NCBI GenBank assembly: GCA_023249675.1
Contig: JAHFCE010000010.1
Coordinates: 1-64,000 of the forward strand
DNA length: 64,000 nt
Direction of reading: 5' to 3'
DNA from: Elusimicrobiota bacterium
Lineage (GTDB): Bacteria; Elusimicrobiota; Elusimicrobia; UBA1565; UBA9628
The notes beneath the pieces were generated by a model that saw only the letters and a list, made by a program, of their open reading frames with translations, was not told the DNA's origin and made no database searches. Positions 30,899-52,114 of the stretch are shown one piece after another. The first letter of the stretch is position 1. Every line of letters starts with the position of its first letter. Both the position numbers and the translations under genes were made by a program.

Positions 30899-31906
30899 CT
30901 AAAGGCCTCGGGCGTGAAGGTCGTGGACCTGGATCAGGCCGACCGCGCGGCCGCGGCGATCGACGACGGGCAGGACGTTGAACGGGTTCCTCCGGTTTTC
31001 CATGAGGGCGACGGCCTGAGCCGTGGAAGTGTCGGGGCGGACCGTGGTCGGGTGCGGGTTCATGACATCCTGGATCGAGAGTGTGAATGGATTTTTTCCG
31101 CCTTCGAGGGCGCGTCGGAGGTCGTAGTCGGTGACAAGACCCACGAAGCGTCCGCGGGCGTTCACGATCGACGCGGCTCCGGCCTGCTTGCGGGTGATCT
31201 CGATGAGCAGGCGCCGTACGCCTGCGTCCAGGCGGACCACCGGATTGTCCTTGCCGGCGCGCATGACGTCCGCGGCGGTCAGGCTCAAGCGGCGGCCCAG
31301 CCGCCCTCCGGGATGATTACGCGCGAAGTCGCCGGCGTCGAAGTTTCGGCGCTTCATCAGCGCGACGGCGAGCGCGTCACCGATGACGAGCGCGACGGTC
31401 GTGCTGCTGGTCGGCGCGAGATTGAGCGGACAGGCCTCCTCGACGATCGGGGTATGAAGGATCACGTCCGCTCGGCGAGCTAAAGTGGACTTCGGATTGG
31501 CGGTCAGCGCGATGAGCTTGGCTCCGCGCGCGCGCAGATGCGGGAGCAGTGCGTTCAACTCGTCCGACTCGCCGGACTTGCCGATCGCGAGCACGAGATC
31601 CTGGCGCTGGACCAGACCCATGCCGCCGTGCATCGCCTCGACGGGGTCTAAGTAGACGGCCGGCGTGCCCGTCGATGAGAGCGTGGCTGTGATCTTTTGC
31701 GCGATCGCGCCCGACTTTCCGACTCCGGTCAGAATCACCTTGCCGCGGCAGGAGGCCAGCATCTCGACGGCCCGTGCATAGGAGGAGTCCACCGCGCTGC
31801 GGACGCGGCGCAGGGCGGTTCTCTCGCAGTCGATCACGCGGCGGATCTCCGCGAGGATGTCGAGCCGGGAGGCCTTTTGTCGGGAGCGTTTCATTGCAGT
31901 CGCCAT
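30899..31906 (-). CDS. kdsD: KdsD/KpsF-type arabinose-5-phosphate isomerase
   Basis: KdsD interconverts ribulose 5-phosphate and arabinose 5-phosphate, the first step to Kdo. The track ORF runs upstream into the next gene; ATG 31906 (MATAMKRS) starts a protein of 335 aa, like E. coli KdsD (328 aa). An SIS domain occupies about residues 30-200 with VILTGVGKSGAIAQK, AMHGGMGLV, IGKSGES, and the LNLAPTSSTT block with NHPGGRLGRRL after it, all diagnostic. Two CBS domains follow (ADVMR and IQDVMNPHPTTV). The gene closes the operator-controlled 42-31 kb unit. Kdo synthase (KdsA) and phosphatase (KdsC) are not in the window, so it may serve a related ulosonic acid. Confidence 0.92.
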   Translation of the reverse strand: MATAMKRSRQKASRLDILAEIRRVIDCERTALRRVRSAVDSSYARAVEMLASCRGKVILTGVGKSGAIAQKITATLSSTGTPAVYLDPVEAMHGGMGLVQRQDLVLAIGKSGESDELNALLPHLRARGAKLIALTANPKSTLARRADVILHTPIVEEACPLNLAPTSSTTVALVIGDALAVALMKRRNFDAGDFARNHPGGRLGRRLSLTAADVMRAGKDNPVVRLDAGVRRLLIEITRKQAGAASIVNARGRFVGLVTDYDLRRALEGGKNPFTLSIQDVMNPHPTTVRPDTSTAQAVALMENRRNPFNVLPVVDRRGRAVGLIQVHDLHARGL

Positions 31907-31910
31907 TCTA

Positions 31911-33776
31911 TCATTCCGACCGCACGTTGAGCGCGGCGTCGAGGGCGGCGGCGGCGCGTTCCGCGCCGCCGCCGTCACCCGAGAAGAAGAGCTGCTCGAG
32001 CAGACGGTTTCGGGATGGTTCATCGGGCAGGCCGCGTCCGGCGTGGAAATGTTCGAGCGCCTCGCGCAGGCCGGAGACCGAGGTGAAGCGCGTAATGTCG
32101 GCTGCCTCGGAGAGGGCGGAAGCGTCGTAGGCGAGCGGGCGCCACTGCCATGCGGGGATTCCGCGGAGAACGGCCTCCTCGCCGATCGTCGAATAACTGA
32201 AGAGCACGGCGTCGGCCCAGGCGAAGTCCTCCTTGAGGGGGCTTGATGAGAGCTCAAGACCGGCGCGCGCGCGGGCGTAGGCCGCGTCGGTTCGAGGTTG
32301 GACGAATGGGTGCTCGCGCAGACGCAGGGACACGCCCGGCAGGCCTGCGGCCGCGGCGCGCGCGGCTTCGAGCATCTGCGCTTCCATCCCCAGATCGAGC
32401 GCCGGCGCGAGAAGGAGGCGCACGCCTTTTCCAGACCAGGATTTGACCGGGGCGGGGGGGCGGATATGGTCGAAGCGCGGGGAGCCGGTCGCCACGACGC
32501 GCTGCGGAGGATAGCCATAGGAGAGGAAGTGCTCTCGCGGCTTGAGCCCCATCGCGAGGACGAGGTCCGGAGTCGGGACCGGGAGGCCGTCCGGCTCTCC
32601 GCGGAATTCGCGTGCGGGCTCGAGGAAATAGAACGTCTTCTCAGCGCAGAAGGTCGCGTGCTGGAGGGTCGCGGTCAGGGCACTCGGCGCGCCCGCTCGC
32701 GTTCCGGCGTAGCACGCTCGCGCCTGGGGGTAATGCTCGAGGAAATGGACGACGGCGCGCGGACGTAGGCGCGCGGCCGCGCGCTGGGCTGCGCGCTCGA
32801 CCAGCGTCGCGCGAGGGATCGAGGCATCGGCGAAGCCGCGCAGGAGGCATTCTTCAAAAAGGGGAAAAAGATCGAGGTCTCCGCTCTGGAAGACGGCGCG
32901 AAAGTCGGGGCGGCCGCGGCGGCGCAGGTACGCGCCAAGAGGTCGGAAGTCGGCGGCCGCCCTCAGCGCGTCGAGCGGCTCGAGGAAAGCCTGCATCAGG
33001 ACGATCCCTCTTCGAGCGGCGTCGCGCGCGGATTCGAAGCGTCCGCGCCGCGGGCGGGCGGGGTCGCCCCCCGGGTCGAGCCAGCAGAGCCAGTTCACGC
33101 TGCGTCCCCTGGCGCTGAGCCGCTCGGGAAAGGCCTTGAAGTAGCGGTCGACGATCTTGCGGCCGTCAAACCAGCACGACCAGTCCCAATAGCCGAAGAG
33201 CAGCACATCGGCGCGCCCCGCGCCGACGTCGGCCGCGCGTGCGGCGAGGATATCGAGCAGCGCGTCGGCGGCGAAGGCGAGGCGCGAGCCGGCCGCGCGC
33301 AGGAGGAGGAGAACGCGCGGGTGGGATGCGGGCGCGCGGCGCTCCGCGACGGCGAAGCGCGCGCGCAGGACCGCGACGATTTCCCGCGGCGCGCCCCATG
33401 TCTCAAGCTCGGACGCGCCGAGACTTTCGGCGGCCTCCAGGACCGCGTGGACCGCGATCAGACGCGAGAACGCGGGGTCCATTTCGCAGGCCTTGAAGGA
33501 GCCGGGATGATACCACCAAGACGATGCGGCGCTGCCGCCGCATTCCGCGCGCAGCGTGGGGCCATTGGGCTCGGCCGAGGCGCCGATGGAGGCGCTGACG
33601 CGCAGGTAGGTCTCCAGGGCTGCGGCCCGGGCCGCAGCCGAGCAGGCGCGCGCGCGGAGGAAGGGGCCGCGCGCGGCGTGCGCGAGAGTCTCTTCCGCAA
33701 TCGGCGGCAGGAAGCTGAGGAGCGGCCCCTCGGGCGGCGCCGGGGGAGGGACCCAGCAGACGGTCAGACGCGTCAT
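31911..33776 (-). CDS. Surface carbohydrate biosynthesis protein, LIC13510-like (putative glycosyltransferase)
   Basis: A 621-residue protein without clear membrane segments. The middle contains LLFGYWDWSCWFDGRKIVDRYF and FRAVFQSGDLDLFPLFEECL, and the C-terminal half is GT-B-like: LLLAPALDLGMEAQML, LREHPFVQPR and a final FSYSTIGEEAVLRGIPAWQW, which resembles the nucleotide-binding end of Kdo or capsule transferases (KpsS/LpxK-like GT-B). From memory this layout matches the TIGRFAM named after Leptospira LIC13510, but I could not check it. Being next to KdsD- and KdsB-like genes, it is the best candidate transferase for the CMP-activated product of this unit. Confidence 0.65.
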   Translation of the reverse strand: MTRLTVCWVPPPAPPEGPLLSFLPPIAEETLAHAARGPFLRARACSAAARAAALETYLRVSASIGASAEPNGPTLRAECGGSAASSWWYHPGSFKACEMDPAFSRLIAVHAVLEAAESLGASELETWGAPREIVAVLRARFAVAERRAPASHPRVLLLLRAAGSRLAFAADALLDILAARAADVGAGRADVLLFGYWDWSCWFDGRKIVDRYFKAFPERLSARGRSVNWLCWLDPGGDPARPRRGRFESARDAARRGIVLMQAFLEPLDALRAAADFRPLGAYLRRRGRPDFRAVFQSGDLDLFPLFEECLLRGFADASIPRATLVERAAQRAAARLRPRAVVHFLEHYPQARACYAGTRAGAPSALTATLQHATFCAEKTFYFLEPAREFRGEPDGLPVPTPDLVLAMGLKPREHFLSYGYPPQRVVATGSPRFDHIRPPAPVKSWSGKGVRLLLAPALDLGMEAQMLEAARAAAAGLPGVSLRLREHPFVQPRTDAAYARARAGLELSSSPLKEDFAWADAVLFSYSTIGEEAVLRGIPAWQWRPLAYDASALSEAADITRFTSVSGLREALEHFHAGRGLPDEPSRNRLLEQLFFSGDGGGAERAAAALDAALNVRSE

Positions 33777-34714
33777 CGGCGCAGGAACTCGGAGGCGGCG
33801 CGAGCGCAGTCGAGCCCGGCGATCGCGGCGCGGCCCATCGCGAGGATGGCCTCCTCGGTCGAGCCGCCGATGTGCGGCGTCGCGAGAATCTTCGGGTGCT
33901 CGAGCAGGCGCCGGTCCTTCGGCGGCTCTTCGGCGAACCCGTCGAGGCCCGCGCCGGCCAGGCGCCCGGCGTCGAGTGCCGCCAGCAGGGCGGTCTCATC
34001 GATGAGGCCGCCGCGCGCGGTGTTGATCAGCACGGCTGACGGTTTCATCCGCGCGAGACGCGCGGCATTTATGAGGCCGCGGGTGTCCGAGACCAGCGGG
34101 GCGTGGAGGCTGACGACGTCGGACTGGGCCAGCACATCGTCCAGGTCGAGAAGCGCGATGCCTTTTTCGGCGGCGAAGGCGCGATCGGGCGCGGGGTCGC
34201 AGGCCAGCAGGCGGACGCCGAACGGCGCGAGCAGGGTGACGAGCTCCCTGGCGACGGCGCCGAGGCCGACGAGGCCGACGGTCTTGCCGGTCAGCGTCGA
34301 GCCCTTGTGCTGGCGCCACATCCCGGCGCGTAGGTCGGCCTGGTCCTCCGGCAGGCGCCGCAGCAGCGCCAGAGTCATCATCAGCGCGAGTTCGGCGACA
34401 GAGCGGCTGTTGGAGCCCGGCGTCCAAGCGAGCTTCACTCCGTGCTTGGCCATCGCGGCGAGGTCGAAGGAGTCGAGGCCGACGCCAAACTTGCTGATGA
34501 CCTTGAGTCCAGGCAGGCGTGCGAGCAGGGCGTCGTCGATGACCTCGAGCGCCAGCACGGCCTTGTCGCATCCATCGAGAAATTCGATGAGGGCGGTATC
34601 CCGCAGCGACGCGCCCGCGTCATTGAAGCGCGCGCCGGGATGGCGGGCCAGAAGTTCCGCGCGCAGAACCGCGTGCTGCGAGAACGAGCGCGATGCGACT
34701 GCGACGAGGCTCAC
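33773..34714 (-). CDS. D-isomer-specific 2-hydroxyacid dehydrogenase (SerA/PGDH-like)
   Basis: A 313-residue NAD-dependent dehydrogenase. The NAD-binding motif is VGLVGLGAVARELV near residue 145. The catalytic triad is visible as Arg in LINTARGG, Glu in GFAEEPP and His in ATPHIGG. There is no C-terminal ACT domain, unlike biosynthetic SerA, so it is probably not the housekeeping serine enzyme. In this operon it lies between a Kdo-type transferase candidate and a dehydroquinate-synthase-like gene and likely oxidises or reduces a 2-hydroxy/2-keto acid intermediate of the unusual sugar. It overlaps both neighbours by four bases. Confidence 0.88.
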   Translation of the reverse strand: MSLVAVASRSFSQHAVLRAELLARHPGARFNDAGASLRDTALIEFLDGCDKAVLALEVIDDALLARLPGLKVISKFGVGLDSFDLAAMAKHGVKLAWTPGSNSRSVAELALMMTLALLRRLPEDQADLRAGMWRQHKGSTLTGKTVGLVGLGAVARELVTLLAPFGVRLLACDPAPDRAFAAEKGIALLDLDDVLAQSDVVSLHAPLVSDTRGLINAARLARMKPSAVLINTARGGLIDETALLAALDAGRLAGAGLDGFAEEPPKDRRLLEHPKILATPHIGGSTEEAILAMGRAAIAGLDCARAASEFLRR

Positions 34715-35802
34715 GGAAGTTCCGCCGTGCGGCCTTTGGCGAGGTATTCAGCGCAGACGGCGCGGAACTTCTCATCGGCCGGCGCTGAAACCTTGCGGAT
34801 CGTCCCGGCGGCGTTGGGCATGATCAGTCCGAGACTCTGCGCGGAGTTTTTCTTGTCCTTTGCCAGCGCGCCAAGAAAGTCATCGAGCGGGACCGGCGTC
34901 GTCTCGAAGCCCCGCCAGTTGGCGGCGAGGGTCGGACGCATGCGGCGGTAGTGCTCCGCGGAGCCGAGGCCTAGCCGCGCGGCGGCGAGATTGGCGAAGT
35001 CCATGCCGATGGTGATCGCGATGCCGTGGGGGATCGCGTAATTCGTCGCCGCCTCGAGAGAGTGGCCAAACGAATGTCCATAGTTCATCACGAGGCGCGG
35101 CCCCGCGTCAAACTCGTCGGCCTCGACGATCGGCTTCTTGATCTCGAGGCAGCGGCGCAGGTAGCGCGACATGACGGCTCGGTCTGTGAACAGGCGCGGG
35201 TAGTCCGTGGCGATCGCATCGAAAGAGGCCGGGCTCTCGATTGCGTGGACCTTCAGCATCTCGCCGACCCCGGAGCGCACGTCGCGCTCGTTCAATGTGT
35301 CGAGGAAACACGTGCTCAAAACGATCCTCTTCGGCGGCGTGAAGGTGCCGAGCACGTTCTTGGCGCCGCCGCCGTTGATCGAACTTTTCGAGCCGACGCA
35401 GGAGTCGGCCATGGCGAGAAGCGTCGTTGGAACGAAGGACCAATCGACGCCGCGGAGCATCGTCGCGGCGAGGAAGCAGGCGATGTCCTGCGTGACGCCT
35501 CCGCCGATGGCGACGAGCGCCTGGCCGCGGCGCAGGCCCTTCGCGACGAGGTGGCGCACATAGGCCGGCATCGCCTCGATGGACTTGGCGTCCTCGGCCG
35601 CGTCGATCAGCAAGATGGAGCGCGACAGGAGCGCGGGTCTAAGCCCGCGCTCATAGAGGCCGGCGACGCGGCGGTCGATCAGGAAGTGCGCGCCGGCGGA
35701 GGCCGGCGCGACGAGCTCGGCGAAGGGATCGTCGCGGAACTCGACCGCGTACGGGCCCTTGTGCGAGGCGATGATCAGGTCAGACGCGAGTAAATCCGCC
35801 AT
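34711..35802 (-). CDS. 3-Dehydroquinate synthase-like sugar cyclase
   Basis: A 363-residue member of the AroB/sedoheptulose-7-phosphate cyclase superfamily. The NAD site is GGGVTQDIACFLAA near residue 98. VPTTLLAMADSCVGSKSSIN and KNVLGTFTPPK line the substrate site. Zinc ligands are Glu in RSGVGEMLKVHAI, His in MNYGHSFGHSLE and His in IPHGIAI. The Q in VTQD and the S-S-I-N block depart from the typical GD-L and KTGIN of true AroB, so an altered substrate is likely. Its place in a glycan operon argues against a shikimate role. It overlaps the SDR upstream by 23 bases. Confidence 0.85.
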   Translation of the reverse strand: MADLLASDLIIASHKGPYAVEFRDDPFAELVAPASAGAHFLIDRRVAGLYERGLRPALLSRSILLIDAAEDAKSIEAMPAYVRHLVAKGLRRGQALVAIGGGVTQDIACFLAATMLRGVDWSFVPTTLLAMADSCVGSKSSINGGGAKNVLGTFTPPKRIVLSTCFLDTLNERDVRSGVGEMLKVHAIESPASFDAIATDYPRLFTDRAVMSRYLRRCLEIKKPIVEADEFDAGPRLVMNYGHSFGHSLEAATNYAIPHGIAITIGMDFANLAAARLGLGSAEHYRRMRPTLAANWRGFETTPVPLDDFLGALAKDKKNSAQSLGLIMPNAAGTIRKVSAPADEKFRAVCAEYLAKGRTAELP

Positions 35803-36499
35803 CGATGAGGAAGGTCTGTCCGCTCGCGTAGGTGTTGTCGGGGCTGCAGAGCCAGTACGCCAGCGCGGCGATCTCGGCGGGCCGCGCCAAGCGCCCGATC
35901 GGGATGCGCGCGACGAGCTTCTGGACGCCTGCGGCGCCGAGGATTCTTCGCGTCATGTCGGTGTCGACGAAGCCGGGCGCCAGAGAATTGACGAGCACGC
36001 CGTCGCGCGCGGCCTCGGCGGCGAGCGACGCCGTCAGGCCGTCGAGGCCGAACTTGCTCGCCGAGTAGGCGCCGCGTCCTTCGCGCGACACGACGCCGAA
36101 GACCGAGGTCACGTTGACAACACGGCCCCAGCGCCGTTTTGCCATGCCGGGCAGGAGCGCTCGGCACAGCAGGAACGGGGCGCGCAGGTTGACGCGCTGG
36201 ATGCGGTCGTAGTCGCCGGCGTCGATGTCGGCGAACGGCGAGATCTTGTTGACTCCCGCGTTGTTGACGAGAATTCCGAAACCTTGGCGCCCGGCCCATG
36301 CGGCGAACGCCTCGGCCGCGGCGTCGTCGCCGAAGTCTGCCGCGGCGTACGCGCAGCCTATCGGGGCCTTGCTTCCTGGGCGCGTGCCGGTGACCGTGAC
36401 TTTCGCTCCGGCGTCGCGCAGGCGCTGTGCGATCGCTCGGCCGATGCCGCGCGTACCGCCCGTGACCAGGGCCTTGCGGCCGGAGAGGGGCCTCTTCAT
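35780..36499 (-). CDS. Short-chain dehydrogenase/reductase (classical, FabG-like)
   Basis: The start is ATG 36499, overlapping the upstream stop as ATGA and giving 239 aa, a classical SDR length. TGGTRGIGRAIA binds the cofactor, NNAGVNK follows, and Ser/Tyr/Lys of the active site are in VTSVFGV and YSASKFG. The C-terminal GQTFLIDGGF is standard. It lies between a Gfo/Idh/MocA enzyme and the cyclase-like gene and probably reduces a keto group on the same intermediate. A fatty-acid role is unlikely from context. Confidence 0.88.
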   Translation of the reverse strand: MKRPLSGRKALVTGGTRGIGRAIAQRLRDAGAKVTVTGTRPGSKAPIGCAYAAADFGDDAAAEAFAAWAGRQGFGILVNNAGVNKISPFADIDAGDYDRIQRVNLRAPFLLCRALLPGMAKRRWGRVVNVTSVFGVVSREGRGAYSASKFGLDGLTASLAAEAARDGVLVNSLAPGFVDTDMTRRILGAAGVQKLVARIPIGRLARPAEIAALAYWLCSPDNTYASGQTFLIDGGFTRV

Positions 36500-37545
36500 C
36501 GCGTCCTCTTCGGAATACGGTCGGACAGCCGGTAGCGGCGCTTCCACGCCGGGTCCGCGCAGTAGATGCGGTAGATCAGTTCCATCGTCTTCAGCGCCTC
36601 CAGCGACGAGCCGTGGACGACGGGGGTTCCTTTCAGCACGCAGTCGGCGAATTCAAAGATCTCGTCGCGCCACGAGTTGTCCTCATTGTAGCGCGTCGTG
36701 ACCTCGCTGGGATCGCCGGCGTCCCCGTGCGCGGCGCGGGCGACGGTCAGCGTTTCCGCGCCGTAGGATTTCGAACCGGAGAGGATGCCGGACAAAGTCA
36801 GCGAGCCTTTCTCGAGCGCGATGTCGAGGTTAAAGCGGTGCCGCCACTGCGTGGCCGACGAGTGCAGCAGCGCGACGACGCCGGAGCGCGTCTTCATCAG
36901 CGCATAGGCGTTGTCCTCGACATCGTGCCTCCAGAACTCGTTCGACACCACGCTGTGGACCTCGGCGAAGTCTCCGGCGAACAGGCGCATCAGGTCCACC
37001 ATGTGGATGCCCTGGTCGAGCAGAATGCCGCCGCCGGCGTGGCGGCGCTGGGCGCGCCAGCTGTTCTCGAAGGCCACGATGCGGCTCTTGCCGTAGACGC
37101 CGTTGAGATTCAGCAGGCGTCCGAGGCGTCCGGAGCGCACGATCTTGAGCGCGTCGCGCACCGAGTCGTGGTAGCGGTGGTTGAAGCCGTACTTGAGCTT
37201 GAGGCGAGGGTGCTTCCTCTCAACGGCGCGGACCCGCGCGACGTCGGCGATGTCGCGTCCCGGGGGCTTTTCGCAGAACGTATGAAGTCCCTTCTCGAGG
37301 CCGCGAATCGCGGCATCGGCGGCGAGGTCGTTGGGCAGGCTGACGAACAACAGGTCGAGCGCCTCCCGGGCGATCATCCGCCTGTAGTCCGCGTAGAACC
37401 GAACGCCATCGGGGAATGTCCCATCGCGGCCGAAGCGCGCGTCGCTGATGGCGGCGGTCGCCAGTTGCGGGTGCGCGTCGATGAACGGTCGGCGCCGCGG
37501 GCCGACCACGCCGTAGCCGGCGATTCCAACGCGCAAGCGCTTCAT
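36496..37545 (-). CDS. Gfo/Idh/MocA-family oxidoreductase
   Basis: The N-terminal Rossmann motif is VGIAGYGVVGPRRRPF, with an unusual run of three arginines after the glycines that could bind a phosphate or NADP. The EKP-equivalent is FCEKPPG near residue 92, and the substrate-domain motif is GGGILLDQGIHMVDL, with the conserved His. The 349 residues fit the family. Inositol and sugar dehydrogenases belong here, which makes pairing with a cyclase-like enzyme noteworthy. It overlaps both neighbours (ATGA). Confidence 0.87.
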   Translation of the reverse strand: MKRLRVGIAGYGVVGPRRRPFIDAHPQLATAAISDARFGRDGTFPDGVRFYADYRRMIAREALDLLFVSLPNDLAADAAIRGLEKGLHTFCEKPPGRDIADVARVRAVERKHPRLKLKYGFNHRYHDSVRDALKIVRSGRLGRLLNLNGVYGKSRIVAFENSWRAQRRHAGGGILLDQGIHMVDLMRLFAGDFAEVHSVVSNEFWRHDVEDNAYALMKTRSGVVALLHSSATQWRHRFNLDIALEKGSLTLSGILSGSKSYGAETLTVARAAHGDAGDPSEVTTRYNEDNSWRDEIFEFADCVLKGTPVVHGSSLEALKTMELIYRIYCADPAWKRRYRLSDRIPKRTR

Positions 37546-38378
37546 ATCGCCGCCGCCGCGGCGTAGAGCGGTACCAGGCGGTCCGCTGCCATCGCGGCTT
37601 GGACGCGGGCCAAGTCCTCGGGCGTGTCCACGGACAGGGTGCGCGTTTTGGTCAGGGCCATTTTGACGGCGTCTCCGTGCTCGAGGAGGCGCAGCATGTC
37701 GATCGCTTCGGCGGTCTCGAGCGGTCCCGGCGGCAGCGCGTTGAAGCGCAGCAGGGCCTCGCGGCGGAACGGCACGATCGCGACGTGGCGGCGGCGCGGC
37801 GCGGCGCAGGCGCCCTTTTGACGGGTCGGGATGGGCTCACGCGAGAAGAAGAGCGCGCGGTCGTTGAGGCCCGTTACGACCTTGACCGTGTTGGGGTCGT
37901 CAAACTCGGCATCGGTCGGAATATCGGCGATCACGCTGGCGACCGAAAGCGACGGATCCTCGAGCAGGAGCCGGACGGCGTCATCGATCATTTGGGGGAC
38001 GACCATCGGCTCGTCGCCCTGCATCAGCGTCACGATATCGATGCGGCGGCCGGTTTCGGCCTCGATCTTGAGCATGGCCTCGGCCACGCGGTCGGTGCAG
38101 CGGTCGTGCGCGGGCTTGGTCATGACGGCTTTGGCGCCGATCGAGTGGGCGTAGTCCATGATTTCGCGGTCGCAGGTGGCGATCCAGGTTTCCGCGACGG
38201 TCTTCGCCATGGCGGTCCGGAAATAACAATGGCCGATCATGGGGATGCCGCAGATGAGCGCCATCGGCTTGCCCGGAAAGCGCGAGGAGGCCATGCGCGC
38301 GGGCACCACGGCGACGACGCGGGGTGTCATGGGGTCGATAGTATCAATTCGCGCTCCGGCCGCGGGATGCGGGCTCAT
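37542..38378 (-). CDS. KdsB-like CMP-ulosonic acid cytidylyltransferase
   Basis: The N-terminal signature VVPARMASSRFPGKPM binds CTP. The motif LMQGDEPMVVPQMIDD is diagnostic of KdsB-type cytidylyltransferases, and SVDTPEDLARV closes the family pattern. Compared with E. coli KdsB (248 aa) it is somewhat longer and its substrate region (AHDRCTDRVAEAML) is divergent from the DHxSGTDR of true KdsB, so a Kdo-like rather than Kdo substrate is possible. I keep ATG 38378, coupled by ATGA; ATG 38330 (MTPRVVAV) is an alternative. With KdsD at the end of the unit it indicates a CMP-activated 2-keto acid. Confidence 0.83.
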   Translation of the reverse strand: MSPHPAAGARIDTIDPMTPRVVAVVPARMASSRFPGKPMALICGIPMIGHCYFRTAMAKTVAETWIATCDREIMDYAHSIGAKAVMTKPAHDRCTDRVAEAMLKIEAETGRRIDIVTLMQGDEPMVVPQMIDDAVRLLLEDPSLSVASVIADIPTDAEFDDPNTVKVVTGLNDRALFFSREPIPTRQKGACAAPRRRHVAIVPFRREALLRFNALPPGPLETAEAIDMLRLLEHGDAVKMALTKTRTLSVDTPEDLARVQAAMAADRLVPLYAAAAAI

Positions 38379-39538
38379 TGCGCCGAGCCTCCATCGACGG
38401 CGATGCTGGAGCCGTTGATCTGGGATGATCCTTCCGACAGCAGGAATTCAACGATGGGGAGGATGTCCGAGGTCTCGACCAGGCGTCCGGTCGGCATGCG
38501 TCCGGCGAGGGCTTTGCGCGTTTTCTCGGGCATGCCTTCGTTCATGCCGACGGCAACCGCAGTGGGAACGACGACGTTGATGGTCGCGCCCTGTCCGGCG
38601 AGGTCGGCGACGAGCAGGCGGGCCAGGTGTTCAAGGGCGGCTTTTCCCAAAGAGTAGGCTCCGGCGTGAGTCTGTGGGTTTTTGCTTCCGGCCATCGAGC
38701 CGAACATGAGAAGACGTTTGACCGATGAGCCGGGACGGCGGGCCCACTGCGCCAGTAGGAGCGGCAGCTCCATCGAATGCCGCAGATGACGGCGCACCAG
38801 GTCGAGGTCATCGCTGACGAAGCCGCGCGACATCGGCGGCGAGCTCATATGCAGGATGCCGTGGAAATCACCCGGCGAGAGCCGGTCGAGCAGGCGTTCG
38901 AAGGCGCCGCCTTCCTCGGCATCGGCCGAGAGGTATTCGAGCCCGGTGCGGGCGGGCTGAGCGGGCGGGCGGCGGGTGACGCAAGCGATGTCGTAGCGCG
39001 CCAATAGGGCGGAGATCAGCGCCGAGCCGATGCCACCCGTGCCGCCGGTGACGAGCAAGCGTGGACGGCGGTCGAGGGGCGAGGGGCATGCCGCGGCCCG
39101 AGCCGGGACGGCGGCGCCGGCCGGCGCGCGCGTTTCGCCGAGGATGGCGTGGAGCGCGAAGGATACCTCGGCCTCAAGGACGGTCGAAAGCTTTGCGGTG
39201 TCGGTGATGGAGATTCCAACCAAGCCCGTTTCGCGCGCCGGATCGAAGTTCTTCAGCCGGCCCTTGACCCGCACGTTTGCGGGAAAGAAAAGAGGATTGG
39301 GGAATTGGATCTTCATCGACAGAATGAGGCTGCGGCGGCCCGGGATATTCATGCCTAAGACCCGGGAGACCAGACCCACCAGAAGGGCGCCATGCGCGAT
39401 CGGCCGGCCAAACTCGGTTCCTTTGGCGTACGTGGGATCGTTGTGCAGGGGGTTGAAGTCGCCGCTCAAGCGTGAAAAATCGGAGACGTCCTGCGCGGTG
39501 ATCGCAGCCGAGAATTCGCAGTTCTGCTCCATGGTCAT
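38375..39538 (-). CDS. Fusion of MaoC-like hydratase and SDR ketoreductase
   Basis: The start is ATG 39538 (MTMEQNC), overlapping the ACP stop (ATGA). Residues 1 to about 135 form a MaoC/R-hydratase hotdog: FSRLSGDFNPLHNDPTYA carries the catalytic Asp/His pair, and RPIAHGALLVGLVSRVLG follows. A Pro/Ala-rich linker leads to an SDR from about residue 160: LLVTGGTGGIGSALI, a Ser in LMFGSMAG, and YSLGKAA with Tyr and Lys. Both active sites look intact. Next to an ACP gene, the enzyme probably reduces and dehydrates or hydrates a carrier-bound beta-keto/enoyl group. It is 387 aa long. Confidence 0.85.
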   Translation of the reverse strand: MTMEQNCEFSAAITAQDVSDFSRLSGDFNPLHNDPTYAKGTEFGRPIAHGALLVGLVSRVLGMNIPGRRSLILSMKIQFPNPLFFPANVRVKGRLKNFDPARETGLVGISITDTAKLSTVLEAEVSFALHAILGETRAPAGAAVPARAAACPSPLDRRPRLLVTGGTGGIGSALISALLARYDIACVTRRPPAQPARTGLEYLSADAEEGGAFERLLDRLSPGDFHGILHMSSPPMSRGFVSDDLDLVRRHLRHSMELPLLLAQWARRPGSSVKRLLMFGSMAGSKNPQTHAGAYSLGKAALEHLARLLVADLAGQGATINVVVPTAVAVGMNEGMPEKTRKALAGRMPTGRLVETSDILPIVEFLLSEGSSQINGSSIAVDGGSAQ

Positions 39539-39780
39539 CCGTTCCGTTTTGCGAGCTTTTCGATTACGATGGTTTCCGCGGCCTCGAACGAGCTCATGTC
39601 GACGGCGTCTTCGTCTGATATGGTCACGTCGAACTCCTGCTCGATGGCTGAGATGAGCCCGAGCTGAATCAGGCTGTCCCAATGGGCGCAATTCGCCCGG
39701 GTCCGCTTGCGGACCGGCCCCGTTTCTTCAATCATAAGGTCGAGAAAGATGGCTTCGATTTTTTCAGCGGGATTGGACAT
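39535..39780 (-). CDS. Acyl carrier protein
   Basis: An 81-residue acidic helical protein with the phosphopantetheine site WDSLIQLGLISAIE, Ser36 in the D-S-L signature at the start of helix 2. It is not in a fatty-acid operon: it sits between an FkbH-like enzyme (upstream, overlapping by 17 bases) and a MaoC-SDR fusion (downstream, ATGA). It is therefore probably a dedicated carrier for a small acyl unit attached to a sugar. Confidence 0.92.
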   Translation of the reverse strand: MSNPAEKIEAIFLDLMIEETGPVRKRTRANCAHWDSLIQLGLISAIEQEFDVTISDEDAVDMSSFEAAETIVIEKLAKRNG

Positions 39781-41494
39781 TGGGGGCTCGTCTGCCTTCT
39801 TTCGTCGCGACGACCGCGCCGGATTGTTCCGCGGCCAAACGGGCGGCGGCTGCGACGCGCGTGCGGTCGATGCGCCAGTCCTCGTTCTGGGTGAGGTTGC
39901 CGCCGAGCTCGGTCAGGAACCTGCGCGCGGGCTCGTTCTTCCCAGTGCTTTTAAACGGACCTTGAATCCAGCGCGCGGAGCTGCGGCGGAGCAGCTCTTC
40001 CAGCGCGAGTATTTCAATACAGCGTCCAAAGGCGCGGCAGCTGAGGACGAACTGGCGGATCCGGAGAACTTCGCCGTCGACCGTGCCGGCGACGACGCAG
40101 ACCGTGCCGAAATCGCCGAAACGGTCGGCGAGCCTGACGGCGGTGCAGAAAGCTCTCGGAGCCGACGCCCAGCCCAACCATTCATCTTGCGATAGGCGTT
40201 CGCCGGTCAGATTGAATTGGTTGGTCTTATTGACAAGCTCGAGGCAGCGCGGATCCAAGAAGGCGTTCGTGTCGATCAGAAGCTTGAGCTCGAGCCCGCG
40301 AAGATGGCCTGCTCCGTTAGCGCAGGCCTTGGAGGATTCGCGTCGCGCCGAAAGGGTATCCGAGCGGAGGCGGTCCTCATCGCCGATGCGCCATGCGCCG
40401 AAATGACCCTGCAGCGCGCCGAAGAATGCGGGCCAATCCCTGCCTTCGCGCGGAACGCCGAGGGCCGCCGCTTCGGGAAGATGAGTTCTGACTTCGGCCA
40501 GCTCCGCTTCGTTGTCGTCTACGAACACGAGGGCGTCGGTGCCGATGTTCAGCTCCCGGGCCAGCGCCCTGAGGTTGGCGGACTTGGGATCCCAATTGCA
40601 GCGATAAGCCGTGAAATCGGCCAGTTTCAGCGGCATGTCCAAGGAGTCGAAGACCGGGAGCACGTCCTCGGGATTGTTCTTGCTGCAGAAGGCCAGCAGG
40701 ACCCCCTCGCGCCGGAGCTTCGCAATAAATTTCTGGAAAACATGGAACGCGGAACCGGGGCCCTCGGAGCGGCAGAGAATCTTTTGCGGGCCGTCTTCTC
40801 CGATGACCCCGCTCCAAAGCGTCCCATCGAGATCGACAACGAGGGCTTTCTTTCGCTCGATGGATGGGTATGCCGTCGTCACGAGGCGCTCCGCGAGGAG
40901 CGCGCATTGTTCCAGGGGTAGGGGGTGTCCCGCCAACAGCAGGTCGCGATAATTGAGGCCGCAAGGAGCTTGTTCCAGGATGCGTCCTCCCGCTTGAGCG
41001 ACGGCATGCGCCGTGTCCCACAGCGCCGTGTTCGCGGCTGCGGTGGAGGCTCCCGCCGCTCCGGGCGGACACGGATCGATGATCGGCAGCCACTCGCGCG
41101 GCGGAAGGACGACGAGAGACAGTCCGGGGCGGGCTCGGACCCACGCCGCGAGCCGGGCTTTGAGCTCGCGGCCGTTTTCAATGATCTCGGCGTCGGGGAT
41201 CCCTCCAAGCGGGCCGCGGGAGCGCCACGTGAGCCCAGGATGGATGTCGTCCCAGGACAGGAGCAGCGCGGCCGGGGAGTTCTTCAGCTCGGAGGAGGTT
41301 CTCTCCAGGGCCGCGCGCAGCTGGTCGAAGCCGAAGGTTTCGACTTCTGGGGCGCCGCTGGGGAAGCGTCGGGCGCAGAAGGCCTGGAGATACGTCTTCA
41401 GATGGAGCGGCTCGAAGGAGCAGAGCAAGGCGAATGTCCGCGCGTTGTCGCGCGGCGCGGAGTGCGCAAGCTTGGCGGCTTCGCGAAGGAGCAT
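39764..41494 (-). CDS. FkbH-like HAD-family ACP-loading enzyme
   Basis: A 576-residue protein of the FkbH type. The N-terminal about 200 residues resemble the GDSL-like flank seen in longer members. The HAD core starts near residue 217 with VVDLDGTLWSGVIGEDG (motif I, D-x-D), then FCSKNN (motif II) and FVDDNEAE (motif IV). A C-terminal GNAT-like domain follows. FkbH in polyketide systems makes glyceryl-ACP from 1,3-bisphosphoglycerate, and homologues in glycan loci are thought to load a small acid on an adjacent ACP. The ACP overlaps its 3' end, fitting that role; the acid is not known. Confidence 0.88.
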   Translation of the reverse strand: MLLREAAKLAHSAPRDNARTFALLCSFEPLHLKTYLQAFCARRFPSGAPEVETFGFDQLRAALERTSSELKNSPAALLLSWDDIHPGLTWRSRGPLGGIPDAEIIENGRELKARLAAWVRARPGLSLVVLPPREWLPIIDPCPPGAAGASTAAANTALWDTAHAVAQAGGRILEQAPCGLNYRDLLLAGHPLPLEQCALLAERLVTTAYPSIERKKALVVDLDGTLWSGVIGEDGPQKILCRSEGPGSAFHVFQKFIAKLRREGVLLAFCSKNNPEDVLPVFDSLDMPLKLADFTAYRCNWDPKSANLRALARELNIGTDALVFVDDNEAELAEVRTHLPEAAALGVPREGRDWPAFFGALQGHFGAWRIGDEDRLRSDTLSARRESSKACANGAGHLRGLELKLLIDTNAFLDPRCLELVNKTNQFNLTGERLSQDEWLGWASAPRAFCTAVRLADRFGDFGTVCVVAGTVDGEVLRIRQFVLSCRAFGRCIEILALEELLRRSSARWIQGPFKSTGKNEPARRFLTELGGNLTQNEDWRIDRTRVAAAARLAAEQSGAVVATKEGRRAPNVQSR

Positions 41495-42179: not shown

Positions 42180-43967
42180 TTATTGAGCCTGGAGCTGGTG
42201 GAAGCGGCGGTAGAGGCCGTCCTCGCGCGCGATGAGTTCGTCGTGCGTGCCGGACTCGACGATACGGCCGTGGTCGAGCACGATGATCCGGTCGGCGTTT
42301 CGGATCGTGCCGAGGCGATGGGCGATCACGAGCATCGCGCGATTGCGCGACAGTTCAGTCATCGCGTCCTGGATCAGCTTTTCCGTCACGGAGTCCATCG
42401 CGCTGGTGGCCTCGTCGAGGATCAGGATGGGGGAGTTCCTGAGGAACGCGCGCGCGATGGCCACGCGTTGGCGCTGGCCTCCGGACAGACGGACGCCGCG
42501 CTCGCCGAGCATCGTCTTCTCCCTGAGCGGCAGCCTGCCGACGAATTCATCGGCGCGCGCGCGTCGCAGGGCGTCGTGGAATTGCGAGTCGGCGCAGTCC
42601 GGCGCGCCGTAGCGGATGTTGTTCTCGAGCGTGTCGTCGAAGATGAAAGTATCCTGGCTGACGACGCTGACCAGGCGCGTCCAGTCCTCGCGGCGCAGTT
42701 CCGGGAGGGGAATGCCGTCGACCGTGACGCGTCCCTCCGTCGGGTCGAACAGGCGCAGGAGAAGGCGCGCGAGGGTCGTCTTGCCCGCGCCGGAGCCGCC
42801 GACGACGGCCAGCATCTCGAGGCGCCCGAGGACCAGAGAGATCCCCTGCAGGGAGTCTTCCTGGGCCTGAGGATAGCGGAAGCTCACGTCATGGAAGACG
42901 ATGCGTTCGTCAACGGAGTTTTTTCGCCGTGTTCCCCACCGCAGAGTCGTCAGCCCTTTCTCGGAGAGTATTCCGGGGAGCCTATTCATTCGCGATAAGA
43001 ACTCCGCCATATGGACGCGGCCGTCGTTGATCGCGGTGACTTTCGGAATGATGCGCGTGACAACGAACATGAACCCCAGCAGGTCTGCGCCCCGGATCGA
43101 GAGTCGGGAGACCGCCAGATAGACGATCACGCAGAGCAGTCCGTCGCCAAGCACGCCCTCGCAGAAGGCGTTGCGCGCCTTCGTGACGGCAATTGTCCTG
43201 GCGTTGCTCTCGATGGCTCGCGCCATCGCCGAGAAGCGGGCTTTCTCCTGTTCCTCGGTGCCGAAGGACTTGATGACATCGATGCCCTGGTGGACGGCGG
43301 TCAGCAGAGACTTCATCTCCGTGCGCAGCCGGCCATGCTCCAGGCCGTGGGCGTGCACTTGTTTGACGAACTGCCCGGAGACGGCGTAGCGAAGCGCGCC
43401 CAGAACGGCGACGGCCAACGTCAGACGCCACGACACATACAGCGCGACGGACGCGTAGACGAGGATGGAGAGCGAACTTGCCGCGATGATGATCGCAAAG
43501 GTGAAGGCGTTGCCGACGTAATCGACCTCACTCTCGACTACCTGAGCCAGCTCCGCGCTGGAGCCGGCCGTGAAATAGAAGAGATGAGATGAGATGATGC
43601 GCGAGAACGCCTCCTCGCGCAGGTCCGCCATCAGCGGATCGTAGATGCGTGCGGAGACCGTCGACACGCCGTGCTTCAGGATCAGCGCTCCCAGAATGAC
43701 GATAAAAATCAGCGTGATGAAGGCTCCGACCGACGGCTCCAGTCCGACAGCACCCAGCGCTGTAATTACCGGCCGGGCAGCCGGCCGTGATAAGAACGCC
43801 TCGCCGTGCTGCACGTACTCGATCAGGGGAAAGAACAGACCGATGCCCAGACCCTCGCTCAGAGATGCTCCCAGCATCAGCGCGCCCAAGCCCATGATGC
43901 GCGCGCGGTAGCGCTTCAGCGCACCGAGATACGGGGAAACGTGAGCGACGAACTGTCGCGGATTCAT
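42180..43967 (-). CDS. ABC exporter, fused membrane and ATPase domains (MsbA/PglK-like)
   Basis: A 595-residue half-transporter. The start is ATG 43967, coupled by ATGA to the upstream gene. Six membrane helices occupy about residues 20-310. The ATPase has Walker A VVGGSGAGKTTLA, Q-loop VVSQDTFIFDDT, signature RLSGGQRQRVAIARA, Walker B LILDEATSAMD and the H-loop IAHRLGT. This type flips lipid A (MsbA) or lipid-linked oligosaccharide (PglK). As the last gene of the pseudaminic-acid-type unit it may export a lipid-linked glycan in parallel to the Wzx fusion at 22 kb. Confidence 0.92.
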   Translation of the reverse strand: MNPRQFVAHVSPYLGALKRYRARIMGLGALMLGASLSEGLGIGLFFPLIEYVQHGEAFLSRPAARPVITALGAVGLEPSVGAFITLIFIVILGALILKHGVSTVSARIYDPLMADLREEAFSRIISSHLFYFTAGSSAELAQVVESEVDYVGNAFTFAIIIAASSLSILVYASVALYVSWRLTLAVAVLGALRYAVSGQFVKQVHAHGLEHGRLRTEMKSLLTAVHQGIDVIKSFGTEEQEKARFSAMARAIESNARTIAVTKARNAFCEGVLGDGLLCVIVYLAVSRLSIRGADLLGFMFVVTRIIPKVTAINDGRVHMAEFLSRMNRLPGILSEKGLTTLRWGTRRKNSVDERIVFHDVSFRYPQAQEDSLQGISLVLGRLEMLAVVGGSGAGKTTLARLLLRLFDPTEGRVTVDGIPLPELRREDWTRLVSVVSQDTFIFDDTLENNIRYGAPDCADSQFHDALRRARADEFVGRLPLREKTMLGERGVRLSGGQRQRVAIARAFLRNSPILILDEATSAMDSVTEKLIQDAMTELSRNRAMLVIAHRLGTIRNADRIIVLDHGRIVESGTHDELIAREDGLYRRFHQLQAQ

Positions 43968-45700
43968 CGGGTGGAGGGCTCCTCGCGGACTTCCTTCAGC
44001 CATGCGTCAAGCCAGTCGGGGCTGGACCGTGCGAAGTTCCTCGCGAACGTTCGGTGTGCGGCGCGTCGCTCGGGCTCGTCCCACCACGCGCGAGGATCGG
44101 CGTAGATGAGGCCAACCTGCGCGGCGGCTTCCTCCGGCGAGTCAAAGAGGATCCTGACTGTCTTGAGCGCCTCGACGAATGGGCGCGCCGCGTCGCGCAA
44201 CGGCCAGGCGTCTTCCCGCCAACTCAGGACCGAAGGGATGTCTGCGGCCATCGCCTCCAACAGAGGGGTCGACGGACAATCGAAGACCGCGAGCCGGACC
44301 TCCCGCAAACGGTGGGCGAAGGGGGATTCGGGATCGTCGAAGCGCGTGTCCGGGCAGAGTTCCTGGATGCGCTCGCGGTGCTTCCACCCCCAGTCGCGTC
44401 GGTAAAGACGCAAGCGCGTTCGGCTGCGCGCGGGTTCAGGGAGCGCGCGCAGGAGCCGGGATTGGCGGTTGAGATAATCGAAGGCCAGGGTGTTGTTGTT
44501 GGCGCGTATCAGCCGGACGTTATGAAGGTCGAGAGGGGTCGAGACGTAGAGGACCTCATCGCCGGAACGCGTCGCGCCGTTGCGCGACAGCATGGGCGGG
44601 GGCAGATCCCGGAGCTTTAAGTCGCGCTCCGTTTTTGACCAACCCCAACAGTAGTAGCGGTCGCTCACGGAGCGCTCGAAGTCTTCGGCCGGGCTGTAGT
44701 CCATCATCCCGTAGCTGCCCCCGTGTTGGCAGCCCCAGAGTTCGGCGCCCCGCTCGACGCACTCGGCCGCTGCGAATTTGAAGGAATCGGCGTAGTGGCA
44801 GTCGACGGTCGTGAAGGCGGCGCGCGGGGTCCGCCCGAGATGGGAACGCGTGAAGTTCACGGCGTCGGCGTATCCTTCAAGAAACAGGGTCGGCAGGTGG
44901 TGGGGCAGGGCGTTGATGAAGATCCGCTCGAACTCATCGCGCGCCTGGAGCCGGCGGAGGCCTTGGCGGCGTTCATCGGGGATGGGGGCGGGGGAGTCGG
45001 GCAATTCGGCCAGGTAAGGCAGGGTTTTGAAGCGGGATCCAAGGATCAGCCGCAGGCGCTCGCCGCGGCTTAAACCCAGTTCCGAGATAAGTATTTCTCC
45101 AGCACCCGCGCGCGCGCAGGCGGTCAAGGCCCAGGTCAACGCCCGTTTGGCCCGCCTTTTGAAGCCGGGGCGCGGCTGCGGCGCTGTCGGTTCGGACAGC
45201 GCGCGGACGGGCGAGTCGGGCATCTTCGCGGCGAGGATGTGAGAGAACATCTGCAGGTGGAAGAAATGTCCTGCTGTCAGCCGCATGAAATCGGCCGTGC
45301 TGCGGGGAGTTTGGTCACACGCCGGATCCAGCCGGAACGTACGCAGAGAGGGCTCCAGCTTGAGGGCGTCTTCGACATGGACGCAATGGTCGTACATCTG
45401 CTCGACATGGTAGGTCAGCCAGGGGTCGAGCAGGATCCGCCAAGCTCGGCGGCTGCGGATGATGCCGAGCGTCCCGTTCAGGTAGGGGACCAGTTGATCG
45501 AGAAGATGGCTTGAGACATCGCGGCAGTAACTGGCGGCGGCTTGGAATCGTGCGAGGTCGCTCCAGGGATCCGCCAAGAAACGGGGGCGCAGCCTCTCCC
45601 ACTCGGGACGGCGTTCGTGCAGGGCGCACCACGGGCCGATGAAAAGCAGCTCATCGTTCTTGTCCCAAAACTCCTCGAGCGGCGTGACGGCCAGAAACAT
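43964..45700 (-). CDS. LIC12162-like putative surface glycan transferase
   Basis: A 578-residue soluble-looking protein. MFLAVTPLEEFWDKNDELLF followed by GPWC is, as I remember it, the typical N-terminus of the family named after Leptospira LIC12162 (putative O-antigen transferase). C-terminal blocks AELWGCQHGGSYGMMDYS and VFDCPSTPLLEAMAADIPSVL have a GT-B look: a His-Gly-Gly donor-loop and an E-A-M-A helix. It lies after the transketolase pair and before the ABC exporter, so it could transfer the unusual sugar of this unit. The family has no firmly known reaction. Confidence 0.75.
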   Translation of the reverse strand: MFLAVTPLEEFWDKNDELLFIGPWCALHERRPEWERLRPRFLADPWSDLARFQAAASYCRDVSSHLLDQLVPYLNGTLGIIRSRRAWRILLDPWLTYHVEQMYDHCVHVEDALKLEPSLRTFRLDPACDQTPRSTADFMRLTAGHFFHLQMFSHILAAKMPDSPVRALSEPTAPQPRPGFKRRAKRALTWALTACARAGAGEILISELGLSRGERLRLILGSRFKTLPYLAELPDSPAPIPDERRQGLRRLQARDEFERIFINALPHHLPTLFLEGYADAVNFTRSHLGRTPRAAFTTVDCHYADSFKFAAAECVERGAELWGCQHGGSYGMMDYSPAEDFERSVSDRYYCWGWSKTERDLKLRDLPPPMLSRNGATRSGDEVLYVSTPLDLHNVRLIRANNNTLAFDYLNRQSRLLRALPEPARSRTRLRLYRRDWGWKHRERIQELCPDTRFDDPESPFAHRLREVRLAVFDCPSTPLLEAMAADIPSVLSWREDAWPLRDAARPFVEALKTVRILFDSPEEAAAQVGLIYADPRAWWDEPERRAAHRTFARNFARSSPDWLDAWLKEVREEPSTR

Positions 45701-45727: not shown

Positions 45728-46696
45728 TCATGCCGCGAGGCTGTCTGCGATTCGGAGCACGATCTGCTGTGCCGTCAGCCCGTTTCTCTCGAGCAGGTCC
45801 TTATATTCGGCGGCCTTGCCGTGGTGATCCGGAAGACCGAGAATGAGCTGGGGAGGGGCGTTCTTCAGCGTGGATTTGAACTCGGCGACCGCGCCACCCA
45901 GGCCGCCGACAACACTGTGCTCCTCGATGGTGACGATCAGTTTCGATGAGCGGCAGGCCTTTTCGATCGCGGCGGTGTCGATGGGCTTGATGGTGTGCAT
46001 GTTGATAACGCCCGTGGACACGCCCCGCTGCGACAGGAATTCGGCGGCTTGAAGGGAAGGATGGACCATGGTCCCTGCCGCGATGATGGTCACATCGCTT
46101 CCTTCACGCAGGACGTTTGCCCGACCGATTTCGAAGACGTAGTCGTCTTCGTAGACCGGGGCGGCCCCGGGGCCGCCCGTCAGGCGGAGGTAGACCGACT
46201 GGTGATGTTGGACGGCCGCCAAGGCCGCTTTGAACGTCTCGGTGCAGTCCGCCGGAGAGATGACCGTGATGCCGGGGATCGCGCGCATCACGGCCACGTC
46301 TTCAATGCAGCAGTGGCTATAGCCGAGCGGCCCCAGGACGACTCCGCTGGCGAGTCCGACCATGCACACGTTGTGGCGCATGTAGCCGAGGTTCATCTTG
46401 ATCTGTTCGCAGCAGCGCATCGTCTGGAAAGGAGCGAATGTGGCTGTGAAGACCTTCGTCCCTTCGCTGGCGAGACCCGCCGCGATGCCCATCATGTTCT
46501 GCTCGGCGATGCCGACATCGAGGAATTTATCGGGGAAGGCCTTTTTGAACCGATCGAGCCCCGCGGAGGTCGAGGTATCGCCCGTCAGGATCATGAGGTC
46601 GCCCACTTCGTTGCCGAGTTCGAGGGCGGCCAGTCCGAATGTCGCGCGCGGACCAACGGCGGACCATAGTTTGATGTTCGCTTTGGTGATGATCAT
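45728..46696 (-). CDS. Transketolase C-terminal half (pyrimidine-binding and C-terminal domains)
   Basis: The track start is moved to ATG 46696 (MIITKANIKLW), seven bases after the stop of the N-terminal half. The pyrimidine domain has the catalytic-type Glu in FLDVGIAEQNMMGIAAGLA near residue 65 and later ISPADCTETFKAAL; the C-terminal domain begins near GTMVHPSLQAAEFL. With the upstream subunit it would form a heteromeric TPP-dependent transketolase, as for split transketolases in many bacteria. Its context beside LuxC/LuxE homologues rather than sugar-phosphate genes suggests an unusual aldehyde acceptor. Confidence 0.92.
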   Translation of the reverse strand: MIITKANIKLWSAVGPRATFGLAALELGNEVGDLMILTGDTSTSAGLDRFKKAFPDKFLDVGIAEQNMMGIAAGLASEGTKVFTATFAPFQTMRCCEQIKMNLGYMRHNVCMVGLASGVVLGPLGYSHCCIEDVAVMRAIPGITVISPADCTETFKAALAAVQHHQSVYLRLTGGPGAAPVYEDDYVFEIGRANVLREGSDVTIIAAGTMVHPSLQAAEFLSQRGVSTGVINMHTIKPIDTAAIEKACRSSKLIVTIEEHSVVGGLGGAVAEFKSTLKNAPPQLILGLPDHHGKAAEYKDLLERNGLTAQQIVLRIADSLAA

Positions 46697-46703
46697 TTGA
46701 GCG

Positions 46704-47537: not shown

Positions 47538-47538
47538 G

Positions 47539-48282
47539 TCACATGCCCCCATCGACGCGCAGAACTTGCCCCGTCATGTAGGATGACAGGTCGCTGGCCA
47601 GGAACAGCGCCGCGTTGGCTATTTCCTCGGGGCGGCCAACGCGCTTCAGGCTGATCCTCTGCAGCGTGCGTGTCAAGGCGTCCGCGGGAGTGCTCCCGGT
47701 CATCATGTCCGTCTGAGTCAGTCCGGGCGCGATGGCGTTGACCCGGATGTTTTGCGCCGCCAGCTCCCTGGCCAGGACCTTCGTCGAGGAGATGAGGGCG
47801 GCCTTGCTCGCCGCGTAGGCCGTTCGCCCCTCGTTGCCCTCGATCGCGGCGCTGGAAGAGAGGTTAATGATACTGCCGCTTTTTTGACGCGTCATGATCT
47901 TTACGATGTACTGCGTGAACAGCATCTGGGAGAAAAAATTCGTCTCGAAGACCTCCTTCATCTTCTCGACCGAGGTCATCTGGAACAGGGAAGTGAAGAT
48001 GACGCCCGCATTGTTGACCAGAACGTCTACGGGTTGTTTTGACCCGGCGATCGTTTTGCCCGCCTCCTTGACCTGACCGAGGTCCGCGAGGTCGAAGTGG
48101 AGCGGCGTGATCGTTACGCCGTTCTCCTGGGCCAGGCGAGCGGCGTCGCTGGCGAAGCGCTCGTCAGGTTTGCGTATGCATGCCCAGACGTTCGCGCCGT
48201 TTCGGGCGAAGACCTCCATTGTGGCCCTGCCGATGCCGCGATTGCAGCCCGTGATGAGCGTTGTTTTTCCTTTGAGAAGCAT
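47539..48282 (-). CDS. Classical SDR oxidoreductase (FabG-like)
   Basis: A 247-residue SDR with TGCNRGIGRATME (Cys in place of the common Gly/Ala), NNAGVIF, and the active-site residues in NLSSSAAIEG and YAASKAAL. The C-terminus, GQVLRVDGGM, is standard. It is coupled to the split transketolase (one-base gap). In this module it could reduce a beta-ketoacyl-ACP, or the ketone formed by the transketolase. The choice cannot be made from sequence. Confidence 0.88.
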   Translation of the reverse strand: MLLKGKTTLITGCNRGIGRATMEVFARNGANVWACIRKPDERFASDAARLAQENGVTITPLHFDLADLGQVKEAGKTIAGSKQPVDVLVNNAGVIFTSLFQMTSVEKMKEVFETNFFSQMLFTQYIVKIMTRQKSGSIINLSSSAAIEGNEGRTAYAASKAALISSTKVLARELAAQNIRVNAIAPGLTQTDMMTGSTPADALTRTLQRISLKRVGRPEEIANAALFLASDLSSYMTGQVLRVDGGM

Positions 48283-52112: not shown

Positions 52113-52114
52113 AG

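Follow-up and report, generated by a model that had tools for sequence, protein, structure and literature searches.

The 64,000-nucleotide stretch analysed here (the window, positions 1 to 64,000 of contig JAHFCE010000010.1) comes from an uncultured Elusimicrobiota bacterium whose genome, designated G000, comprises 2.6 Mb and is 98.6% complete. Among its genes for surface polysaccharide it carries a seven-gene operon in which an AroB-like cyclase lies together with a KdsB-like cytidylyltransferase, several oxidoreductases and a large transferase. The genes form a single minus-strand run from 38378 down to 30899, in the order kdsB-like, Gfo/Idh, short-chain dehydrogenase/reductase (SDR), aroB-like, 2-hydroxyacid dehydrogenase, GT-B transferase and kdsD. 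Family searches, on which the genome-wide statements about G000 made below also rest, confirmed the coordinates and families read from the sequence in a first-pass annotation, including the lack of an ACT domain in the PGDH-like protein. Relatives in other genomes are referred to by locus (L) numbers.

37542..38378, minus strand: KdsB-like cytidylyltransferase (PF02348, 132.8 bits; NF009905, 285.6, cut-off 255; TIGR00466, 143.4, under its cut-off of 155.2); a later ATG at 38330 is a possible alternative start
36496..37545, minus strand: Gfo/Idh/MocA dehydrogenase of the inositol-dehydrogenase type (PF22725, PF02894 and PF01408 over cut-off; nearest named model TIGR04380, score far under its cut-off)
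35780..36499, minus strand: SDR-family reductase (PF13561/PF00106), with an ATG start at 36499 (the listed open reading frame starts at GTG 36547)
34711..35802, minus strand: AroB-like cyclase, TIGR04425 (439.7, cut-off 400; aroB model TIGR01357, 245.9, under its cut-off of 305)
33773..34714, minus strand: D-2-hydroxyacid dehydrogenase, PGDH-like, without ACT domain (PF02826, PF00389; PGDH equivalog TIGR01327, 232.6, under its cut-off of 454)
31911..33776, minus strand: transferase of 621 amino acids, GT-B fold by predicted structure, no Pfam or NCBIfam match
30899..31906, minus strand: KdsD, arabinose 5-phosphate isomerase with SIS and CBS domains (TIGR00393, 288 bits, cut-off 203.7)

Neighbouring genes overlap by 4 bp at four junctions (KdsB/Gfo, Gfo/SDR, AroB-like/PGDH and PGDH/transferase) and by 23 bp at the SDR/AroB-like junction, and a gap of 4 bp separates the transferase gene from kdsD. 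Close orthologues in the same order are present in three other genomes (L002, L055/L090 and L110). The synonymous divergence of the operon orthologues (dS 0.50–0.92) is well above the non-synonymous one (dN 0.13–0.29), which, together with the kept gene order, indicates that the conservation of the operon is not due to chance. The closest relative of the window cyclase is that of L002 (77%), and the Gfo/Idh orthologues of L002, L055, L088 and L110 match that of the window at 70–82%.

The cyclase belongs to TIGR04425, which NCBIfam names 'AroB-related putative sugar phosphate phospholyase (cyclizing)' and holds as a hypothetical equivalog without an assigned reaction. It is the only protein of G000 with a 3-dehydroquinate synthase (DHQS) domain. 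A search for chorismate synthase, which detected the enzyme in 14 of 14 control genomes, gave no match in G000. Type II DAHP synthase was not found there either, and the one gene of the type I DAHP synthase/KdsA family is KdsA. The shikimate pathway thus appears to have been lost, and such a genome provides a clean background in which the window enzyme cannot be AroB. AroB-level matches occur in several genomes of the genus, although G000 itself is without chorismate synthase, DAHP synthase and an ordinary AroB. A second DHQS, besides the TIGR04425 protein, is present in the genomes of L002, L003, L004 and L006.

A phylogeny with DHQS, EEVS and DOIS sequences, a check that the first-pass annotation had suggested, placed the TIGR04425 proteins in one clade (support 99/95) apart from the AroBs. 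Grouping of the window protein with the AroBs was rejected by the approximately unbiased (AU) test (p-AU 7e-69), EEVS and DDGS were far from the window cyclase, and DOIS formed a long unplaced branch. Cyclases of type A, that is, those tied to Gfo/Idh, constitute one clade (92/85). The predicted structure of the window cyclase is a plain DHQS fold (pLDDT 92), with matches at Z 39.9 to DHQS, 37.2 to DOIS, 36.5 to EEVS and about 22 to glycerol dehydrogenases. Taken together, the lack of a shikimate pathway, the family score under the aroB cut-off and the tree lead us to reject the AroB role, and as far as sequence can tell the window protein is not AroB, in line with the earlier view of the cyclase as distinct from the shikimate enzyme. 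No other aroB is indeed present in the genome; since chorismate synthase and DAHP synthase are lacking as well, this does not turn the cyclase into AroB. No relatives were found in viral contigs, and those on plasmids were AroB-level matches only (about 34%). Loci L007–L018, mostly from gut Bacillota, encode further AroB-like proteins, in which the residue following the HG motif varies; a clade of ten (99/97) is distinct from AroB as well as from TIGR04425.

The active site of the cyclase was compared at twelve classical DHQS positions (D146, K152, N162, E194, K197, K250, R264, N268, H271, H275, H287 and K356 in A. nidulans numbering), which are usually assigned to the zinc, the phosphate, the carboxylate and the base. 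In the alignment, the TIGR04425 members checked all agree with E. coli AroB at each of the twelve. The first-pass annotation had described the active-site residues as non-AroB, and this has to be corrected: it is only at adjoining positions that the family differs. There, Q105 is found in 25 of 26 members against glycine in 12 of 12 AroBs, and further marks are L219, C135, P258, S, A or G at 138, and I, Q or L at 261, after the HG motif, where AroB has glutamate. The window cyclase shares Q105, C135, L219 and the non-glutamate residue 261. In sequences taken from the Protein Data Bank (PDB) collection, DOIS differs from AroB at 264 (G), 268 (E) and 356 (N), and EEVS at 250 (M), 268 (D), 275 (P) and 356 (T). 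The window cyclase is AroB-like at 250, 264, 268, 275 and 356, all of which vary in DOIS, EEVS or DDGS. This argues for a substrate resembling 3-deoxy-D-arabino-heptulosonate 7-phosphate, with a carboxylate beside the hemiketal, rather than one of the sedoheptulose- or glucose-phosphate type, and EEVS- or DOIS-type specificity is disfavoured.

The window KdsB-like protein is the second KdsB-type copy of G000; a canonical-looking one lies near KdsA on contig 2. Both score under the TIGR00466 cut-off of 155.2 (143.4 for the window copy, 145.7 for the other). The window protein retains R10, K19, Q98, D100, R157 and D235, of which all except R157 belong to the side of cytidine triphosphate (CTP) and metal. 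At 185, 210 and 211, positions that presumably face the sugar, 3-deoxy-D-manno-octulosonic acid (Kdo), E. coli KdsB and the contig-2 copy alike have Y, E and Q; the window copy has V, D and M instead, as expected from the altered substrate block noted earlier. The KdsB members of the related pathways share the change: residue 210 is D in 8 of 8, residue 185 is V, I, F or L, and residue 211 is M, L or S in 7 of 8, with R10, K19, Q98, D100 and R157 preserved.

KdsD is another matter. The window gene is the sole one of G000 over the TIGR00393 cut-off, and the stretches fetched for L110, L089 and L113 yielded no KdsD. Being the only copy in the genome, it is best regarded as a housekeeping enzyme, probably shared with ordinary Kdo synthesis, and we reject it as an indication that a second ulosonic acid is made. 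It is the second KdsB with its altered sugar pocket that signals something unusual. The original suggestion that the KdsB- and KdsD-like proteins together point to an acid activated with cytidine monophosphate (CMP) therefore holds for the former and fails for the latter. KdsA and KdsC, reported as missing, are absent from the window; the genome has both (KdsA on contig 2, KdsC on contig 15).

For the 621-residue transferase, the predicted model (pLDDT 83) falls among many GT-B chains, with a best Z of 17.5 and a root-mean-square deviation of 3.9 over 308 residues. The fold search singled out no CMP-dependent transferase; TarL and TagF appeared only further down, which proves nothing. The homologues of the protein always adjoin KdsB-like genes, and this co-occurrence suggests that it uses a CMP-activated donor, the GT-B fold itself not being donor-specific. 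In L110 the transferase gene (4559–6401) is split into two frames by a mutation or an assembly error. With a diverged second KdsB in a set conserved together with the transferase, an unusual CMP-activated acid added by this enzyme, as the first-pass annotation proposed, is the natural reading; that a carbon ring enters the glycan is a further step, to which we turn below.

Operons of the same kind without a cyclase were reached via relatives of the transferase and of Gfo/Idh. In four operons (the window, L002, L055 and L110) the SDR and cyclase genes lie between those of Gfo/Idh and the 2-hydroxyacid dehydrogenase. The order in L088 is KdsD, HpcH aldolase, KdsB, Gfo/Idh, a HAD-family gene (11549–12193), PGDH and transferase, so that the HAD gene occupies exactly the slot that SDR and cyclase fill in those four. 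L089 has an inositol-monophosphatase-family gene between PGDH and the transferase, and L113 a homologous HAD gene (33% to that of L088), located near KdsB and Gfo/Idh in the company of genes for HpcH, a GmhA-like isomerase and a transaldolase-family protein. No homologues of these three phosphatases were found in the cyclase loci scanned. The alternation suggests that both kinds of operon remove phosphate from the same kind of intermediate, one by hydrolysis and the other by a ring-forming elimination. An HpcH/HpaI pyruvate aldolase, an enzyme that makes 2-keto-3-deoxy acids, is encoded in L002, L110, L088, L089 and L113.

From these results, a hypothesis regarding the pathway may be put forward, to which we assign a probability of roughly 0.42: the operon encodes a CMP-sugar-acid pathway in which a phosphorylated intermediate, probably a 2-keto acid, loses its phosphate by ring closure and not by hydrolysis, giving a carbocyclic acid of the O-antigen. 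The cyclase would oxidise the phosphorylated 2-keto acid (an ulosonate), eliminate phosphate and close a cyclohexane ring by 3-dehydroquinate-synthase chemistry. The SDR would then reduce the resulting ketone, Gfo/Idh and the 2-hydroxyacid dehydrogenase would adjust the oxidation state or stereochemistry of the acid, the KdsB paralogue would activate it with CTP so that CMP is attached, and the GT-B enzyme would transfer the activated residue to the O-antigen. In the KdsB reaction, the C2 hydroxyl of Kdo attacks CTP (PMC3149649). The expected product, a quinate-like carbocyclic acid, would have a C(OH)(COOH) centre resembling the anomeric centre of Kdo. Comparison provided the gene families, the operon and its conservation, a genome lacking the shikimate pathway, an active site like that of AroB, the altered KdsB pocket and the alternation of phosphatase and cyclase in a few loci; from these we infer the substrate, the order of the steps, the product and the donor of the transferase. 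A broader version, that some bacterial surface glycans contain a quinate-type 'carba-ulosonic acid' derived from an ulosonate phosphate, with a cyclase replacing the phosphatase, KdsB-type activation at C(OH)(COOH) and transfer by an unusual mechanism or as a phosphodiester, we consider distinctly doubtful.

Several observations weigh against the ring-closure pathway. The alternation comprises four loci against three only, and the placement of L088 amid the cyclase operons in the concatenated tree has a support of 84/83 only. The tree thus suggests a secondary loss of the cyclase in L088; the AU test, with p 0.18 for the alternative, does not settle the point. The HpcH aldolase was not found in the window operon or in the fetched G213 contigs, and a search of G000 for an orthologue gave weak family matches only, with no homology to the operon-type HpcH; the source of a 2-keto-acid phosphate in the window organism is consequently not accounted for. 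Kdo-8-phosphate, the sole such compound that G000 surely makes, would be unfit for six-ring DHQS chemistry. Moreover, a carbocyclic CMP ester would not be a normal glycosyl donor, there being no route through an oxocarbenium ion. Finally, the window enzymes KdsB, Gfo/Idh and PGDH resemble those of the phosphatase-type L088 as closely as their counterparts in cyclase-type operons, which would be odd if the acids differed by a whole ring, and which favours separate products. The missing aldolase, the closeness of the L088 enzymes and the abnormal donor are the reasons why our confidence stays under one half.

Separate products would arise if two modules shared one operon, KdsB, Gfo/Idh, the 2-hydroxyacid dehydrogenase and the transferase making and attaching a conventional, non-carbocyclic CMP-ulosonic acid, and SDR and cyclase making a separate cyclitol or cyclohexane acid, attached in some other way. 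L088 and L089 have the first set complete without SDR and cyclase, the enzymes of L088 being closely similar, and SDR and cyclase occur without KdsB, Gfo/Idh and PGDH neighbours in most of the CDP-sugar clusters L056–L065. On the other hand, the pair is embedded within the set in the window, where the genes overlap, as well as in L002, L055 and L110, a phosphatase gene is present where the pair is absent, and the type A cyclases tied to Gfo/Idh form a single clade. We regard this explanation as rather doubtful.

An unlikely alternative is an EEVS- or DOIS-like cyclase acting on a carboxylate-free sugar phosphate (sedoheptulose 7-phosphate or a hexose 6-phosphate), in which case the ring would be a cyclitol of the glycan and Gfo/Idh would serve as an inositol dehydrogenase. 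Gfo/Idh is nearest to inositol dehydrogenases, GmhA-like sedoheptulose phosphate isomerases are encoded in L002–L005, L054 and L113, L113 also has a transaldolase-family gene, and the window contains a split transketolase; against this stand the five AroB-like residues at 250, 264, 268, 275 and 356, and the remoteness in the tree of EEVS and DDGS, with DOIS on its unplaced branch. That the protein is a diverged true AroB producing 3-dehydroquinate for aromatic compounds is very improbable: it is the sole DHQS of the genome and has the fold and the active site of one, but chorismate synthase and DAHP synthase are missing, the aroB score is under the cut-off, related genomes hold both proteins, the tree rejects the grouping and the gene is set in a glycan operon.

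Glycan loci with a TIGR04425 cyclase are present in Elusimicrobiota, Acidobacteriota, Gemmatimonadota and Alphaproteobacteria, and in every locus examined an SDR adjoins the cyclase. In L003–L005 (Acidobacteriota, Gemmatimonadota) and L054, the pair is accompanied by Gfo/Idh, a GmhA-like isomerase and a cupin-fused cytidylyltransferase of the PseF/KdsB-like kind. A second cluster type, found in other Elusimicrobiota (L056–L065), combines cyclase and SDR with a thiamine-diphosphate enzyme, an HpcH-like or NeuB-family protein and often CDP-sugar genes; two of these clusters (L064, L065) also contain an FGGY-type kinase. NeuB-family enzymes, like those of the HpcH type, make 2-keto-3-deoxy acids, and the kinase could supply the phosphate to be eliminated, so that these clusters fit the same logic. 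The sugar that they likely serve to make would be branched or bicyclic and may be comparable to bradyrhizose or caryose.

Bradyrhizose, a bicyclic sugar of photosynthetic Bradyrhizobium, is likewise a carbocyclic constituent of an O-antigen, and its genes were reported to be unknown or no more than presumed on the strength of a mutant (11-gene cluster; PMC4743980). The link to it is a lead only.

Of the known systems, TIGR04425 itself is matched by the window protein in both score and fingerprint. AroB shares with it the fold and the twelve active-site residues; unlike AroB, the window type forms a separate clade, differs at the fingerprint positions and always accompanies an SDR in glycan loci, here in a genome without a shikimate pathway. 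DOIS and EEVS belong to the same sugar phosphate cyclase superfamily, with conserved NAD and metal ligands, but differ in the substrate-side residues. With the CMP-Kdo pathway (KdsD-KdsA-KdsC-KdsB) the operon has in common a KdsB-type activation, a sugar phosphate intermediate and a glycosyltransferase, and the series KdsD-HpcH-HAD-KdsB of L088 may be read as that pathway with its two middle enzymes replaced. The window departs from it in the altered KdsB pocket, the additional Gfo/Idh and 2-hydroxyacid dehydrogenase, and a cyclase with SDR in place of the phosphatase; a classical Kdo operon includes KdsA and KdsC in the unit, whereas the window operon is without both.

Other genes surround the operon in the window. 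A MaoC-dehydratase/SDR fusion overlaps the start of kdsB by 4 bp and is preceded upstream by an FkbH protein (38375–41494); among the related operons, none has a close counterpart of the fusion, and only L088 has one of FkbH. Farther along there are a transferase of the LIC12162 family (43964–45700; 392 bits, cut-off 225), a transketolase encoded as two separate half-genes (45728–47552), a conceivable source of C4 or C7 sugar phosphates, LuxC-, LuxE- and AMP-binding-type genes (49859–53716), and genes of the pseudaminic acid type (55697–60672) encoding PseB and PseC (both over their cut-offs), a PseG-like protein, a CTP transferase and NeuB. The transketolase and Lux-type genes lie in the glycan locus.

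In the literature searched, we found no paper naming TIGR04425, no account of its pairing with a KdsB-type enzyme or its alternation with phosphatases, and nothing relevant on O-antigen sugar phosphate cyclases, carbocyclic ulosonic acids or the combination of CDP-sugar, thiamine-diphosphate, NeuB and AroB proteins. CMP-sugar-acid pathways and sugar phosphate cyclases are each known; what appears to be new is their combination. The alternation with phosphatases leads to a concrete guess at the step catalysed by TIGR04425 and at the class of its substrate. Carbon-ring sugars are rare in polysaccharides, and, if the proposed pathway is true, the cell coat of this bacterium would gain an unusual carbon-ring sugar acid.

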